64,000 nucleotides of DNA from the NCBI RefSeq assembly GCF_009728835.1, contig NZ_CP033455.1, forward strand, positions 372,001-436,000. The letters run 5' to 3'. The position numbers were made by a program, and so were the translations under genes. Shown piece after piece: positions 4,301-64,000 of this stretch. Numbering within the stretch: the first letter of the stretch is position 1; each line of letters starts with the position of its first letter. The notes below the pieces were generated by a model that had not been told where the DNA came from, ran no database searches, and saw nothing but the letters and a program-made list of their open reading frames with translations. This DNA comes from Ehrlichia ruminantium. Lineage in GTDB: Bacteria; Pseudomonadota; Alphaproteobacteria; Rickettsiales; Anaplasmataceae.

Positions 4301-4454
4301 GTGGTTTAATATACTTTAAATTATTTCTTGTGATACTGTTATATATATTGTCAATTTTTGTAGTGAGAAATTTTCTATATGTTATTGGTTCGAGTAGAAT
4401 ATTGTCAGGTAATTTAAATTATTTGTATTGTGACCAGAGCTATTGTTTATGTAA

Positions 4455-4565
4455 GTTTATATCTTGAAGTTAAATTGCAGTAGTAAATTTATAAAAGTAT
4501 ATATGGTGTAATGTACTAAATAGCGTTGGTATGTAATTTCAAGGTATATATTATGTTTTACTGTT
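4455..4565. repeat. Duplicated downstream flank, copy 1 (copy 2 at 6830-6935)
   Basis: The stretch beginning TTTATATCTTGAAGTTAAAT, with the following AGTAAATTTATAAAAGTATA and TAATTTCAAGG, is matched in order at 6830-6935. Both copies lie on the 3' side of a minus-strand family 1 gene. This suggests that a gene and its downstream flank were duplicated as one segment. Confidence 0.6.
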
Positions 4566-4629
4566 GAAGTTGTATTTGTTGTTTATGTAAATATTAAGTT
4601 GTGACTTAGTTTAAAAAATATTTAGATGT

Positions 4630-5754
4630 TTATCTACTTAAAGTACAAGTCTTACTACATGTTGTATTATCTAAGTATCTATGAGCATGTTGTTCAGAAT
4701 AATAGTCTGCTATTTTGTAACCTTCTGTTTTTTTTAAGTATGTTGTATGAGGTGGTGAGTTAAAATTAGATGTTCTTAGTATGATATTATTTCTGTTCTT
4801 TTTTACTGATATGATAAATTTATGACCATCTTTTGTATATTCATGTTTGCTGTTACTAAAATATTGTGATAAAAGCTTAGGTTTGTTGAATTTCATCTGA
4901 ACTTGACTATACGAAATAGAACTAAAAATATCATTTGGTTTTGATGATATTACAAAAGATAACTCAGAGTTGATAGTATATTTTACTTTGTTTGTTACAC
5001 TGCCTTCACTATCTATAGCTTTTATAGGGAAGTCATGCTTTATAGTTAGTCTAAGAGAATGTGGATTAATTACTGTAATCTCTACTTGAGACGGTGTATT
5101 TGTTAAGTGTACATTTTGATTTAATGCATGTTTGCTGATCATGCGATATATTACAAAATAGGACGATGATAAGTAAGCTCCTTGATTTAAATAAGTTATT
5201 AGTTCATGTATAAGATTTTTTTGAGGTACTTGTCCACATTGTTCAAATATGTGTTCAAGGTATGCAGCCATTTCGATTCTAGGTTTAAATTTATCATCAA
5301 TAGAGGTACTTTCTGTTAATTGAAGTATATATTGTCTATGACTATTTTCAATAGCATGAAATTTTTTAGGATTCTGAGTTCGTGCCTTTTCTATCTTATT
5401 TGTTGTTTGTTCTTTAGTATCATGAACTTTATATCCGTTAATTTGTAAATTAAAGCGTTGATTGTCTTGTTTTGTACATCCTCCATGTATAATATGATCA
5501 TTTAGTTTTTTAGGAACTATAATCTTTGGTACATGTTGAAATTTAAGGGTAGATAAGTAATCTGTAAATGTAATTTTAAAGTTTTGGTTAACTTTTTTAT
5601 TGTGATTATAGAATATTATTCTACTAATTATTAATGCAAATAAAAGTAAGAGCATATATGTAGTTATTATAATGAAAAAGTACTTGAATATATTTTGAGA
5701 TTTAAATAAAAGTATAAACATCCTGAACAACCTTATTACATATTTAATAACCAA
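4630..5754 (-). CDS. Family 1 membrane-anchored paralogue, subgroup A
   Basis: Function unknown. The 374-aa protein has one hydrophobic segment at about residues 26-48, preceded by about 24 extra residues not seen in its relatives, then a long polar domain. Subgroup A landmarks are ITFTDYLSTL at 61-70, FNLQINGYKV at 101-110, the helix RIEMAAYLEHIF at 159-170, and NLIHELITYLN at 180-190. A later strand-like stretch, LSFVISS followed by SISYSQVQMKF, is also shared. The basic N-terminus suggests an N-in orientation with the domain outside the inner membrane, but no cleavage site is evident. It is the first of the minus-strand members. Confidence 0.82.
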   Translation of the reverse strand: MVIKYVIRLFRMFILLFKSQNIFKYFFIIITTYMLLLLFALIISRIIFYNHNKKVNQNFKITFTDYLSTLKFQHVPKIIVPKKLNDHIIHGGCTKQDNQRFNLQINGYKVHDTKEQTTNKIEKARTQNPKKFHAIENSHRQYILQLTESTSIDDKFKPRIEMAAYLEHIFEQCGQVPQKNLIHELITYLNQGAYLSSSYFVIYRMISKHALNQNVHLTNTPSQVEITVINPHSLRLTIKHDFPIKAIDSEGSVTNKVKYTINSELSFVISSKPNDIFSSISYSQVQMKFNKPKLLSQYFSNSKHEYTKDGHKFIISVKKNRNNIILRTSNFNSPPHTTYLKKTEGYKIADYYSEQHAHRYLDNTTCSKTCTLSR

Positions 5755-6289: not shown

Positions 6290-6770
6290 TATTGTTAAGG
6301 TATGTTAACATAAAAAATCTGGTAATCAACGTACGAATCATATGAGAGATTATGTGTAGTAAATGTGTATCCTATATTCCGATAACTTAATATTGTTATG
6401 TATTGTTAGAATGTAGTTAATGTAAAGCATATGTTAGTGAATACCCAAATTATGGAGAAGTATATATAGCAAATGTGTATACTATACTGTTCCAGTGTAC
6501 TTAGTGTTATTGTATTTTGTTAAAGTGTAGTTCATGTAAAGCATGTGGTAGTGAATACCCAAATTATATAAGAAGTATATATAGCAAATGTGTATACTAT
6601 ACTGTTTCAGTGTACTTAGTGTTATTGTATTTTGTTAGAGTGTAGTTCATGTAAAGCATGTGGTAATGAATACCCAAATCATGTGAGAAATATATATAGC
6701 AAATGTGTGTACTATACTGTAGTGTTCCGGTGTACTTAGTGTTATTGTATTTTTGGTTGGTAACTTAGAA
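6290..6770. repeat. Tandem array of 114-122 bp units (about 4 copies)
   Basis: The phrase TGTAAAGCATGTGGTAGTGA and variants recur at 6421, 6535 and 6650, with a more diverged first unit near 6305. The companion phrase ATATATAGCAAATGTGTATAC keeps the same spacing. The last two units are nearly identical, while the first is degraded, and the final unit has a short insertion. The array stands in a spacer and does not touch a gene. Confidence 0.85.
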
Positions 6771-8959: not shown

Positions 8960-9001
8960 TAATCATAAATAATGAAATATCTTTTTGTTTATTTGTGTGA
9001 A

Positions 9002-9632
9002 GTCTTAATGTGATAAAAAATAAAAAGATCACTTATATAAAATTAATAATTAATATTATGTATGTTTAAATACTGCAAATCATGATCAAGTATCGTCTAT
9101 AGTTCTTGAATATGTCTTGATTTTTTAGTTATTGTAGCGCTACAAAGTTCTTGTGTTATTTCTTAATAGGTTACGGTGTAATATTGGCTGTAAGCATTGA
9201 TGATATTAAAGTCTTAATGTGATAAAAAACAAAAAGATCACTTATATAAAATTAATAATTAATATTATGTATGTTTAAATACTGCAAATCATGATCAAGT
9301 ATCGTCTATAGTTCTTGAATATGTCTTGATTTTTTAGTTATTGTAGCGCTACAAAGTTCTTGTATTATTTCTTAATAGGTTACGGTGTAATATTGGCTGG
9401 TAAGCATTGATGATATTAAGGTCTTAATGTGATAAAAAAACAAAAAGATCACTTATATAAAATTAATAATTAATATTATGTATGTTTAAATACTGCAAAT
9501 CATGATCAAGTATCGTCTTATAGTTCTTGAATATGTCTTGATTTTTTAGTTATTGTAGCACTACAAAGTTCTTGTATTATTTCTTAATAGGTTACGGTAT
9601 GATATTACTTAATAAACATTAGTAATATTAAT
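9002..9632. repeat. Three nearly identical 209-211 bp tandem copies
   Basis: GTCTTAATGTGATAAAAAA begins units at 9002, 9211 and 9421. The units differ only at a few positions, such as homopolymer length near 9440 and single bases, which implies recent duplication. Each carries TGTAGCGCTACA, a perfect 12-base palindrome, at 9133-9144 and 9342-9353. In the third unit (9553-9564) it is broken by one G to A change. No open frame runs through the unit. Confidence 0.95.
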
Positions 9633-59110: not shown

Positions 59111-60001
59111 CTATGTTTCACTTGATTTTTTCGAATTTTGTGTAGTTGATAAACAATTTACGAAATTATCAGCAATATTTTGCATAATATCAAAATATGA
59201 TTCTGTGTGTGAAATATTTCCTATAGGATCCAGTATTTGAAATATTACTTTATGTTGAGAAAATAAGTTTCTGATTTTCTCATTTTGAGATTCAGAAAAA
59301 ATACATGATATATTGTTTTCAGTAATAATCTTTTGTATGTGTACTAGTTTCTTAACGCTGATGTTTGTATCGTGACTTGAAGAAAGAGATGTTGTGAAGT
59401 TAAGACCAAAATATTTTTCAAAATATTGGTATGCATCGTGGACAACAACATAAGGTTTTGTTTTGATAGGATTAAGTTGTTGTTTAATTTTTTTTGCTTG
59501 TTCTGTTATTTTTAATATAGTTGCATGTGCGTTCTTATTGTAGGTTTCTGCATTTTGTGGATCTATTTGACATAGTACTGATCTTATATGCTCAACTATT
59601 TTTTTTGCGTTATCTGGACTTAACCATATATGTAAATCATTTGATGTTGTGTGAACTTTATATGAGAAGTGAGGGTCATATCTTGATGGTAGTAATGTTA
59701 CAACATCGGATAGTTTTACTAAGGTTTTATCTTGTATTTTGCTTACAAAGGTTTCTAGATGATCGTCTACATAAAAGATTACATCACTATTCTTTATTTT
59801 CCTTTTGTCTGAGGGTCTTAACATGTAATCATGTATTGAAATTTGTTGATTAATTAGTAGGACTGGTTTGGTTACACTTTCTGTTACTGCATTAACTAGA
59901 GAATATATTGGGTTTATGGTTGCTATAATTTTTGGTACAGAATATCCTGTAATAGGATATAGTGATATATAAAGGAATAAGATAAAAGTTATATGTTTCA
60001 T
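59111..60001 (-). CDS. znuA: Zinc/manganese ABC transporter substrate-binding protein (ZnuA-like)
   Basis: Periplasmic metal-binding protein of a cluster A-I importer. With the start at 60001 the protein has 296 residues and a clear signal peptide (MKHITFILFLYISLYPITGYS). Longer frames to 60127 would bury this signal. Metal-ligand candidates are His in ISIHDYMLRPSD, His in DLHIWLSPDN, His in VVVHDAYQYFEKYFGL, and Asp in ILDPIG. The His-rich loop typical of many zinc-specific ZnuA proteins is absent, so zinc or manganese cannot be told apart with certainty. The ATPase gene is divergent and its start overlaps this start. Confidence 0.88.
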   Translation of the reverse strand: MKHITFILFLYISLYPITGYSVPKIIATINPIYSLVNAVTESVTKPVLLINQQISIHDYMLRPSDKRKIKNSDVIFYVDDHLETFVSKIQDKTLVKLSDVVTLLPSRYDPHFSYKVHTTSNDLHIWLSPDNAKKIVEHIRSVLCQIDPQNAETYNKNAHATILKITEQAKKIKQQLNPIKTKPYVVVHDAYQYFEKYFGLNFTTSLSSSHDTNISVKKLVHIQKIITENNISCIFSESQNEKIRNLFSQHKVIFQILDPIGNISHTESYFDIMQNIADNFVNCLSTTQNSKKSSET

Positions 60002-60721
60002 AGTTTGCTCGGTAAAAATGAGATTTTTCCACATCGTGATAAATGCGTCAATGACTATATTATAAATGTTAAGAATTTGTCGTTTGCTTATGCTAAAAAA
60101 AGAGTGATTGATAACATTAGTTTTCAAGTAAGGTTTGGTGAAATTGTTACAATCTTAGGACCAAATGGTGGAGGTAAAACAACATTGATTCGAATTCTGG
60201 TTGGGATATATAAAAATTATCTAGGAATAGTGGAGTATGCTAGAAATTTTGTGATAGGATATTTACCACAGAATTTTAGTGTAAATTCTCTTATTCCAAT
60301 GACTGTTGAATACTTTTTAGTATCTAGTTATACAAAATGTAGGAAAAAGCTAAGTTTAAATAACGTATTAAAAGATGTAGATGTTGTGAAAATCTTAAAC
60401 AAGCAAATGTCAGAAATATCTCATGGAGAATTACAATTAGTTTTGCTTGCAAGATGTCTAATGCTTAATCCTGATATCATAATTTTGGATGAACCTGTAA
60501 GTTGTATGGATGTTAATGCAAAAGATAGTTTTTATAAATTAATCAATAAGTTAATATTAAGATATAACTTGAGTGTGATTATGACTTCTCATGATTTGCA
60601 TTTTGTTATGGCAACTTCCTACCGTGTTATATGTATTAATAAAAGTATTTACTGTGAAGGATCTCCTAATGAAATTGTGAAAAATGAAAAATTTTTAAAA
60701 ATGTTTTCATCTTATGTTTAG
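59993..60721 (+). CDS. znuC: Zinc-type ABC transporter ATP-binding protein (ZnuC-like)
   Basis: ATPase subunit for the metal importer that uses the ZnuA-like protein. The 242-aa protein has Walker A GPNGGGKTT at 56-64, the Q-loop YLPQNF, a changed signature ISHGELQ (usual LSGGQ), Walker B IIILDEPVSCMD, and the H-loop TSHDLHFVM. The C-terminal motif KSIYCEGSPNEI agrees with ZnuC. The ATG at 59993 lies inside the divergent znuA by nine bases. A TTG at 60005 is the only other plausible start. The stop overlaps ubiB by eight bases. The permease gene is not in the window. Confidence 0.9.
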   Translation: MFHSLLGKNEIFPHRDKCVNDYIINVKNLSFAYAKKRVIDNISFQVRFGEIVTILGPNGGGKTTLIRILVGIYKNYLGIVEYARNFVIGYLPQNFSVNSLIPMTVEYFLVSSYTKCRKKLSLNNVLKDVDVVKILNKQMSEISHGELQLVLLARCLMLNPDIIILDEPVSCMDVNAKDSFYKLINKLILRYNLSVIMTSHDLHFVMATSYRVICINKSIYCEGSPNEIVKNEKFLKMFSSYV

Positions 60722-62156
60722 TATATTCTCTTATATAGGTTCAATATTAGGTATATTAGTTGTTTTAATACGGTATAATATATTACCTTATACTTACCTG
60801 TTTGCTAACAGATCCATCAGATGTAAGTCTAAGGGAGAAAAAATTTCAATGGCATTGCAAAGATTGGGACCAATTTTTATTAAGTTTGGTCAGTCTATTG
60901 CCTCTAGAGGTGATATTATAGGGGAAGAAGTTGCAAATCATCTTTTATGTTTATGTGATAAATTACCAGCTTTTTCTTATTCTGATGTTGTAAGGATTAT
61001 TGAAGAAGATTTTAAATGTGCAATAAGTGAAGTATTTTGTGAATTTGAGGAAATTCCAGTTGCTGCTGCATCAATTTCACAAGTGCATAAAGCAAAAGAT
61101 ATTGATGGAAATGTAAGAGCTGTGAAAATTTTGAGACCAAAGATTGGTCAGATTTTTGAAAATAATATCAAATTGATGTTCTGGATAGCAAAAATAGCAC
61201 AATATTTTGAGGGGTTACGGCGTTTTCAGTTGTTAGAACTTGTACAAACATTTAGTGAAATATGTAAAATGGAAATAGATTTACGTTTTGAAGCAGCAAA
61301 TGCTGATGAATTGAGACATAACATGAAAGATGATCCAACATGTTATATCCCTCAGGTAGATTGGAGCAGAACTACAAAACGGATATTAACATTAGAGTGG
61401 GTAGATGCTGTTCCTATATATAGTTTTTATAATTTAAAAAATAATGAAACTCTAGTAAAAAATTTGATATTTTGTTTTTGTAATCAAGTTTATAGAGATA
61501 GGTTATTTCATGCAGATATGCATCCAGGAAATCTTATGGTAGATGCAAATGGCAAGATTGTAATAATAGATTTTGGTATTGTCGGAAGATTGGATAAAGC
61601 TACGTGTATGTATGTGACAGAAATACTTGTGGGATTTATAAAGAGAGATTATCAATATGTTGCTGATGTTCATTATAGAGCAGGATATGTTGATGCAAAA
61701 TATAGTAATTTTATAACAGCTTGTCGTGCTATAGGTGAGCCTATTGTGGGTAAAGATACTAAAGATATTTCTATAGCTGCATTATTAAGTCAGTTGTTCA
61801 AAGTTACTAGTGATTTTAATATGAAATTACAGCCACAACTTTTCTTGTTACAAAAAACTACAGTGTTAGTAGAAGGTGTATGTAGACAATTGTCTCTTAA
61901 TGTTAATATGTGGGAAGTAGCTGAGTTATGGATGGAAAAATATACGATTGATAAGAATAAATATCTTAAAAAATTGAGAAAATCTTGTTTATATCAGACA
62001 GTGCATGATGTTACGTTTTTTATGAAAAAAGTTGATAAGAGTCTAGATTTAATCAACAGTTATTATGAGGCGAATAATTCTAGATTTATTATAAATAAAG
62101 ATATTGTGTGGGTAATAATAGTTATTGTGTTGGTTATTAAGATAATTATTGGATAA
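60714..62156 (+). CDS. ubiB: UbiB/ABC1-family ubiquinone biosynthesis protein
   Basis: Atypical protein-kinase-like ATPase required for ubiquinone synthesis. The 480-aa protein has the family's KFGQ motif at 57-60 (LGPIFIKFGQSIASR), the Ala-rich nucleotide loop AAASISQVHKA around 118-127, and Lys138 in AVKILRPK. HADMHPGNLMVD and VIIDFGIVGRLD (the DFG motif) follow, with a membrane helix at the C-terminus (about 460-479). The C-terminal anchor is shorter than the two helices of E. coli UbiB. It overlaps znuC by eight bases, so the two are translated together. Its stop codon lies in the first unit of the 125-bp array. Confidence 0.94.
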   Translation: MFSIFSYIGSILGILVVLIRYNILPYTYLFANRSIRCKSKGEKISMALQRLGPIFIKFGQSIASRGDIIGEEVANHLLCLCDKLPAFSYSDVVRIIEEDFKCAISEVFCEFEEIPVAAASISQVHKAKDIDGNVRAVKILRPKIGQIFENNIKLMFWIAKIAQYFEGLRRFQLLELVQTFSEICKMEIDLRFEAANADELRHNMKDDPTCYIPQVDWSRTTKRILTLEWVDAVPIYSFYNLKNNETLVKNLIFCFCNQVYRDRLFHADMHPGNLMVDANGKIVIIDFGIVGRLDKATCMYVTEILVGFIKRDYQYVADVHYRAGYVDAKYSNFITACRAIGEPIVGKDTKDISIAALLSQLFKVTSDFNMKLQPQLFLLQKTTVLVEGVCRQLSLNVNMWEVAELWMEKYTIDKNKYLKKLRKSCLYQTVHDVTFFMKKVDKSLDLINSYYEANNSRFIINKDIVWVIIVIVLVIKIIIG

Positions 62157-63100
62157 AAAGGGTGAATTAAATTCCAGTTATTAATTGGTTTGTAAGTGTA
62201 TTAGTACTTGTCTATGGTAAGGACTTTCGATAGTTTAGCCTATAGATGGTTCTTACTTGGTGTTAGGATGATTTTTAGATAAAAGATGAATTTTGTTCCT
62301 ATTGTTAGTTGATGTATAAGTGTATTAGTACTTGTCTATGGTAGGGGCTTTCGATAGTTTATCCTATAGATGGTTCTTACTTGGTGTTAGGATGATTTTT
62401 GGATAAAAGATGAATTTTGTTCCTATTGTTAATTGGCTTATAAGTATATTGGTACTTATTTGTGGTAGTAACTTTCGATAGTTTAGCCTATAGATAATTC
62501 TTACTTGGTGTTGGGGGTAATTTTTGGATAAAAGATGAATTTTGTTCCTATTGTTAATTGATGTGTAAATGTATTGGTACTTGTCTATAGTAGCGGTTTT
62601 TGGTAGTTTATCCTATAGATAGTTCTTACTTGGTGTTAGAATGATTTTTGGATAAAAGATGAATTTTGTTCCTATTGTTAGTTGATGTATAAGTGTATTA
62701 GTACTTGTCTATGGTAGGGACTTTCGATAGTTTAGCCTATAGATAGTTCTTACTTGGTGTTGGGGGTAATTTTTGGATAAAAGATGAATTTTGTTCCTAT
62801 TGTTAATTGATGTATAAATATATTGGTATTTGTCTATGGTAGGGACTTTCGATAGTTTAGCCTATAGATAGTTCTTACTTGGTGTTGGGGGTAATTTTTG
62901 GATAAAAGATGAATTTTATTCCTATTGTTAATTGATGTATAAGTGTATTTGTACTTGTCTATGGTAGGGACTTTCGATAGTTTAGCCTATAGATAGTTCT
63001 TACTTGGTGTTAGGGTGATTTTTGGATAAGAGATGAATTTTGTTCCTATTGTTAATTGGCTTATAAGTATATTGGTACTTATTTGTGGTAGTAACTTTCA
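62152..63100. repeat. 124-126 bp tandem array made of copies of the next gene's 5' end
   Basis: The phrase GATAAAAGATGAATTTTG (variants included) begins units at 62152, 62278, 62402, 62527, 62651, 62776, 62901 and 63025. The last unit is the true start of the MFS gene. Each unit carries the gene's ATG region, roughly its first 40 codons in decayed form, and the sequence upstream of the start. The first unit overlaps the ubiB stop and is the most diverged. In most units the frame stops after seven or eight codons. In the 62402 unit it runs for 23 codons. Confidence 0.95.
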
Positions 63101-64000
63101 GATAACTTACTCTATAATAAATCCTTACATTGCTCAAGATTTAAGTTTAAGTCTTACATACATTGCACTAGCAGCATCAATGCATATGTGGTGTTTTTCT
63201 ATTTTTCAGCTATTTAGTGGATTGATGCTGGATTATTATGGTGTGAAAAAAATATTGCCAATATCAATGTTGAGTATATTGATTGGTACTTTTTTATTTT
63301 CTTATTCTGATTATAGGATATGTTTTTTTGTATCACAAATTTTTCTGTCTTTTGGAGCATCTTTTGGTTTTATAGGTGCTGGGTATATTAGCTATAAGTT
63401 TTTTTCGTATTTGAAATCAGGGGTCATGTTTGGACTTGTACAAGCAATATATAGTATTTCTTCTTTATTAATGGAGCATCTCTATACATTTTTGACTTCG
63501 TATGGAATATCATGGAGGTACTTAATACAGTATATAGAGTATGCTGAAATAATTGTACTTATTTTAACGTTATTGTTAACAGATTGTAAGTTATCAGTGA
63601 ATTTAAAGAGAAGTAATATTAATATATCGAAATTACTATCAGAGGTATTTTATGATGTTCTTGAGATAGTACTACTAAGAGATATGTGGTTTTTTACGAT
63701 AGTCGGTAGTTTAATGTTTGGTATTTTTCTCTCAGTAGCAGTGTTGTGGGGACAAAAGTTGTTAATAGCTTTGAATTTGAACACGTATTATTTGGCACTT
63801 ATACATTCTGTTATTTGGATAGGATTTGCTATAGGATCTCCTTTAGTGAATTTAATTTCTCATGTTTTGAAAAATAGAAAGTATGTTTTGATGAGTTTTT
63901 GTATTTTGCAATGTGTGAGTTTAACGTTACTGTTGTTTAGTAGTAATTCGTATGTTTTATGTGTTTTGATGTTTATATTTGGATTTGCATCTGGAGGACA
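63033..64000 (+). CDS. Major facilitator superfamily transporter (3' end outside window)
   Basis: The frame from ATG 63033 is open to the window edge (322 codons). It encodes at least eight hydrophobic helices. GLMLDYYGVKKIL between helices 2 and 3 fits the MFS loop motif G-x-x-x-D-x-x-G-x-[RK]. ISYKFFSYLKSGVMFGLVQ and SYGISWRYL fit the helix 4-5 region, with a long cytoplasmic loop rich in Lys/Ser at about residues 185-205. The substrate is unknown. The start is fixed by the array: the same ATG region is copied in every upstream unit, and this is the only copy that continues. Confidence 0.85.
   Translation, partial: MNFVPIVNWLISILVLICGSNFQITYSIINPYIAQDLSLSLTYIALAASMHMWCFSIFQLFSGLMLDYYGVKKILPISMLSILIGTFLFSYSDYRICFFVSQIFLSFGASFGFIGAGYISYKFFSYLKSGVMFGLVQAIYSISSLLMEHLYTFLTSYGISWRYLIQYIEYAEIIVLILTLLLTDCKLSVNLKRSNINISKLLSEVFYDVLEIVLLRDMWFFTIVGSLMFGIFLSVAVLWGQKLLIALNLNTYYLALIHSVIWIGFAIGSPLVNLISHVLKNRKYVLMSFCILQCVSLTLLLFSSNSYVLCVLMFIFGFASGG

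Follow-up and report, generated by a model that had tools for sequence, protein, structure and literature searches.

An Array Built from the ubiB Stop/MFS Start Junction Is Probably a Nearly Neutral Spacer in an Ehrlichia Genome

Between a ubiB-type gene and the gene for an MFS transporter, the window (the whole stretch of DNA analysed, 64,000 nucleotides, from a heartwater-type Ehrlichia) carries eight tandem units, the last of which contains the start of the transporter gene itself. The repeated element is the junction of the two genes, namely the ubiB stop, 3 nt and the MFS start, rather than the gene start alone, and we think it likely that this junction-duplication array amounts to a nearly neutral 876-nt spacer in the znuC-ubiB-MFS row. 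Most likely it adds another example to the growth of spacers by repeats already known from these bacteria, and the locus shows how their unusually long non-coding regions can arise, through duplication across a tight junction.

Results

The initial annotation had placed a tandem array at the start of the MFS gene, and the array is real. TRF returned a period of 124 (7.4 copies) or 249 (3.8 copies) with 88% matches and a score of ∼1400, well above chance. The genes and units of the locus are as follows, in window numbering.

59993–60721, forward strand: ABC transporter ATPase gene (ZnuC-like), first in the co-directional row; its 3′ end overlaps the ubiB start by 8 nt
60714–62156, forward strand: ubiB-type gene (ABC1 kinase-like), intact, 480 aa; it ends within the array, which covers its stop and final ∼20 bp
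62137–63104, forward strand: tandem array of eight units of 124–125 bp, counting the MFS gene's own start (TRF)
62151–62275, forward strand: unit 1, holding the real ubiB stop; the most diverged unit, without ATG (GTGAATTAA)
62276–62400, forward strand: unit 2, degenerate junction copy with ATG and TGA at codon 9 (8-codon frame)
62401–62525, forward strand: unit 3, sharing 69 identical bp with the gene head; open frame of 23 codons (MNFVPIVNWLISILVLICGSNFR), repeat-type tail
62526–62649, forward strand: unit 4, degenerate junction copy, TGA at codon 9
62650–62774, forward strand: unit 5, degenerate junction copy, TGA at codon 9
62775–62899, forward strand: unit 6, degenerate junction copy, TGA at codon 9
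62900–63023, forward strand: unit 7, degenerate junction copy, TGA at codon 9
63024–63104, forward strand: unit 8, functional MFS start (ATG at 63033); its close homology with units 1–7 stops about here
63033–64000, forward strand: MFS transporter gene, intact, 401 aa, continuing past the window to 64238 (window numbering)

The first ∼20 bp of the array are the last ∼20 bp of ubiB, including its stop (62154–62156). Units 2–7 are 82–96% alike, corresponding to 4–18% divergence; no two units are the same, and the longest exact repeat inside the array measures 88 bp. A search of the unit against its own genome gave eight matches, all eight within this array. An ATG region had been ascribed to every unit, which holds for seven of the eight: units 2–8 share GATGAATTT, ATG included, and keep this region well, whereas unit 1 has GGGTGAATTAA instead and lacks the ATG. 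Only unit 8 runs on into the intact MFS frame, as the initial annotation had stated. The upstream units are non-coding, with the conserved TGG of codon 9 replaced by TGA in units 2 and 4–7 and one base missing at codon 23 (a frameshift) in all of units 1–7. The middle units are fragments of the ubiB tail and MFS head lying beside two intact genes, truncated gene fragments of the kind described for E. ruminantium arrays.

The units do derive from the start of the MFS gene, and their number sets the distance between ubiB and this gene. The original description of the unit as the MFS start plus the sequence before it is accurate for the MFS start, but it overlooked the ubiB tail and stop that are also present. 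A copy of the ubiB tail, stop codon included, closes every unit. From ATG to ATG, a unit is best divided into ∼95 bp from the MFS start and ∼30 bp from the ubiB tail (alignment score of 140, compared to 98 for an all-MFS unit); upstream of its last 12 nt, the ubiB part has a score that 15 of 2000 shuffles attained. Such a chimeric unit, with the end of ubiB joined to the beginning of the MFS gene, speaks for a duplicated operon junction rather than for a growing leader.

Both ubiB and the MFS gene are intact and constrained; they have remained whole because the first unit preserves the ubiB end and the last preserves the MFS start. The MFS product matches Pfam MFS_1 (E = 5.8e-29), and the gene is under purifying selection (dN 0.12 and dS 0.67 against Welgevonden), which makes it probable that the gene is expressed. 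Expression probably occurs via read-through, which would come from upstream, or from an unrecognised start. The order znuC-ubiB-MFS is preserved in seven of seven Ehrlichia genomes, and the reading frame of the MFS gene head is conserved across the genus.

To place the array among its relatives, we compared the same boundary in one genome per species, with a dS of ∼0.6 between the window and Welgevonden. DNA identity to Welgevonden over ubiB, znuC and the MFS gene is 82–88% (dS 0.5–0.67), and the host lineage differs, to judge from these sequences, from reference E. ruminantium. The ubiB-MFS spacer measures 876 nt in the window and 224 nt in Welgevonden, 783 nt in the E. canis-like and 806 nt in the E. 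minasensis-like genome, and 293–354 nt in the chaffeensis-, muris- and HF-like genomes. The outgroup genomes, which by their relatedness we take to be Neoehrlichia- and Anaplasma-like genera, have spacers of 37, 44 and 67 nt. Such short outgroup spacers argue that the tight junction is ancestral and that the spacer has grown by duplication.

Welgevonden carries two copies of a 221-bp unit over the ubiB/MFS junction, compared to eight copies of 125 bp in the window. The arms of its array are longer (68 bp of the ubiB end and 143 bp of the MFS start), and its two copies differ at 1 of 66 head positions. In the E. minasensis-like genome (L020, ∼4433–4995), the ubiB 3′ end and the adjoining spacer are tandemly duplicated at an offset of ∼300 bp with 81% identity over 273 bp; at the matching place in the E. 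canis-like genome (L019) lies the corresponding ∼300-bp tandem duplication, likewise of the ubiB 3′ end and adjoining spacer and more decayed than the E. minasensis copy. A search of the chaffeensis-, muris- and HF-like spacers for a signal of origin by junction duplication found none. Tandem duplication has thus enlarged the spacer at this boundary in at least two, probably three, separate ways. These comparisons, with Welgevonden, with E. canis/minasensis and with the outgroups, give the process a direction.

One base is missing at the same codon in Welgevonden copy 1 and in all upstream units of the window, and the chance of two independent single-base losses falling within 1 nt of each other is ∼3.5%. 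Either the array is old and common to both lineages, or the missing base is a coincidence without explanation; an ancient array under constant turnover and parallel duplication are both possible origins. Counting against a single old event are the different unit lengths and the near-identity of the Welgevonden copies (1/66) despite a dS of 0.5–0.67 between the lineages.

We surveyed long-unit arrays in 468 kb of the window's genome, sampled in 20-kb stretches, and in 475 kb of Welgevonden, with genes defined as long open frames and not by annotation. The window's genome yielded 47 arrays (∼1 per 10 kb), 7 within genes and 40 in non-coding DNA. Six of the non-coding arrays overlap a gene 3′ end, and one, the ubiB/MFS array, clearly overlaps a gene start. 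Among the 32 arrays found in Welgevonden, a genome in which repeats make up 6.3% (PMC3287509), 24 are non-coding; 4 of these overlap a 3′ end and 2 a 5′ end, at the MFS ortholog and at argH. The rarity of gene-start capture (1/40, and 2/24 in Welgevonden with one at this same locus) suggests that the junction may favor it, while the argH array indicates that gene starts are captured at other loci too. Two further 5′-end candidates were set aside: an array at a 150-aa ORF that lies almost entirely within the array (L038), and one at a 113-aa ORF (W 66945–67286) with no match in the compared Welgevonden stretch. Elsewhere in the window, arrays at 2070–2731, 6403–6753 and 9000–9606 have periods of 141, 115 and 209 bp and are clear of open frames of at least 100 codons.

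Median values in the survey were 169–173 for the period and 91–93% for the match. The ubiB/MFS array, at 88%, falls in the lowest quarter of this genome's arrays (median 91%), which together with the divergence of its units suggests that turnover is slow rather than rapid. The active copy-number variation that the initial annotation had proposed therefore remains so far unsupported.

A length-variable leader is the strongest competing explanation, and we regard it as unlikely. Transcription would start upstream of the array, and fast changes in unit number would set the MFS level through leader length and short frames, in a phase-like manner. The array sits between two genes, in sense orientation, and no terminator-like site was found in it, which allows this; its position is the sole positive evidence for a leader. 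Numerous short ATG frames also lie in the array upstream of the gene, expansion and contraction of E. ruminantium arrays is documented (PMC10710844), and the expression of M. tuberculosis lpdA is set by promoter repeat copy number (PMC12817950). However, the diverged units, with a match below the genome median, argue against fast change in unit number. The short upstream frames predicted earlier do exist, reaching up to 24 codons, but none enters the MFS gene in frame, and their coverage is no greater than chance (the ATG-frame coverage of a unit was reached by 138 of 500 shuffles); a translated relay of short frames across the array was rejected on the same count. Relatives, moreover, have spacers of 224–806 nt without this array while the MFS gene is conserved, so that no particular leader is needed.

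We scanned the array for expression signals with a promoter consensus, which gives weak evidence in this organism. Neither the array nor the sequence immediately ahead of it has a promoter-like site on the coding strand, and the promoter supposed to precede a variable leader is so far unsupported. One site was counted on the opposite strand, compared to 7.4±3.3 in shuffles, although the repeats lower the effective sample. The array has no match to a known RNA or riboswitch in Rfam, even at E = 1, and the RNA fold of a unit is ordinary (z = −0.38).

The scan bears equally on the reading that every unit carries an MFS promoter and that unit number acts as dose, as in the M. tuberculosis promoter repeats and the senX3/regX3 MIRUs. 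The senX3-regX3 repeat spacer does show promoter activity (PMC4213456), and with the tight outgroup arrangement lost, a promoter of its own could be useful to the MFS gene. The empty coding strand and the single site on the other strand nevertheless leave this explanation improbable, within the limits of a weak scan.

Sequence has also passed between the array and the gene head. For 69 bp (62408/63031) unit 3 is identical to the gene head, after which it turns into repeat-type sequence, whereas the other units retain older states found in Welgevonden and E. canis. These 69 identical bases indicate at least one exchange, more simply with the gene as donor and the array as recipient, since the head of the gene must remain functional. 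The frame of unit 3 (62410–62481) is open for 23 codons and equals the first membrane segment of the transporter; it is probably a by-product of the exchange.

It could be argued that the units serve as gene-conversion templates which overwrite the gene head, so that their TGA and frameshift would switch the gene off and back on. The 69 bases common to unit 3 and the gene head, with the switch to repeat type after them, do record at least one exchange, but transfer from the gene to unit 3 is simpler, the gene head is intact with its frame conserved across the genus, and a single event is no programme; we hold this explanation to be very improbable. A wrong unit number or order through short-read assembly has just as little to recommend it, even if the genome is the Omatjenne assembly, whose reads averaged 160 bp and whose authors caution that units are missing from some of its tandem repeats (PMC7343930), given that all units differ, that even the longest exact repeat inside the array, at 88 bp, would fit within such a read, and that the Welgevonden genome independently has a duplication of the ubiB/MFS junction.

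Discussion

Duplication of the junction, followed by nearly neutral growth of the spacer, is the explanation we favor. The make-up of the units, the intact flanks, the duplications at the same boundary elsewhere, the tight outgroup junction, and the exchange between units 3 and 8 are established by the sequences; the amplification mechanism, the neutrality of the array and the expression of the MFS gene by read-through are what we infer. In the ancestor, ubiB and the MFS gene would have stood almost end to end, separated only by 3 nt between stop codon and start codon. A short tandem duplication across this junction, taking in ∼30 bp of ubiB tail and ∼95 bp of MFS start, would have been tolerated, leaving the copies between the first and the last free to decay. 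Repeated unequal recombination or replication slippage may then have raised the number of units to eight, and recombination would have swapped sequence among the units and the gene head.

The array resembles the E. ruminantium arrays, as described in papers that cite the original accounts (Collins et al. 2005; Frutos et al. 2006), in genus, size class and frequency, and in its head-to-tail units of ∼100–400 bp at high identity (here a period of 124–125 and 88%). According to the same papers, those arrays lie in or beside non-coding DNA and some contain gene fragments, as is the case here. Nearly all other arrays surveyed are clear of gene starts, whereas the ubiB/MFS array spans a co-directional stop/start junction. 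A parallel outside this locus is the duplication at the start of an argH-like gene in Welgevonden (L060:14304–14707), where a 202-bp unit present twice comprises the upstream region and first codons and, as here, only the last copy is the gene. In contrast to the ubiB/MFS array, it has two copies only, and no upstream gene end is seen in its unit.

MIRUs carry small frames at stop/start junctions and are dispersed over many genome loci. The ubiB/MFS units, too, span stop and start between co-directional genes, and the M. tuberculosis senX3-regX3 MIRUs are likewise tandem units between two co-directional operon genes, in a spacer whose unit make-up varies between strains (PMC4213456). Unlike MIRUs, however, the ubiB/MFS unit is confined to one locus and is built from its own two flanking genes. 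The M. tuberculosis promoter tandem repeats of variable copy number (dop, lpdA, cysG) are also direct repeats before a gene start, so that a change in copy number alters the sequence ahead of the gene; there the repeat carries the promoter (PMC12817950), whereas the consensus scan found none in the ubiB/MFS array. Work on M. tuberculosis shows that regulatory roles for such repeats do occur (lpdA; senX3-regX3); a switch-like role of the array is possible but unsupported by the present results.

Duplication recurring at one boundary, in at least two and probably three lineages, could reflect a hotspot or a selected spacer. It seems improbable that the array actively regulates the MFS gene, via unit number or stop-carrying conversion in subpopulations, and that the boundary was re-duplicated since a variable spacer was selected. 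If unit number altered expression, the array would offer an easy route to variation for a bacterium that has few regulators.

Two further arrays were observed near these genes and in a relative. Beyond the window, at 64249–65002 (window numbering; L018:6249–7002) and ∼10 nt past the MFS stop, lies a second array with a 125-bp period and ∼6 copies. The equal period suggested kinship with the upstream array, which was rejected because the sequences are unrelated; on its two sides the MFS gene thus has 125-bp arrays of different sequence. In the E. canis-like genome, a 142-bp array of 5.5 copies (L019:110–890) has a unit whose translation (13 protein letters, not shown) resembles the C terminus of recR, and is another array built from a gene end.
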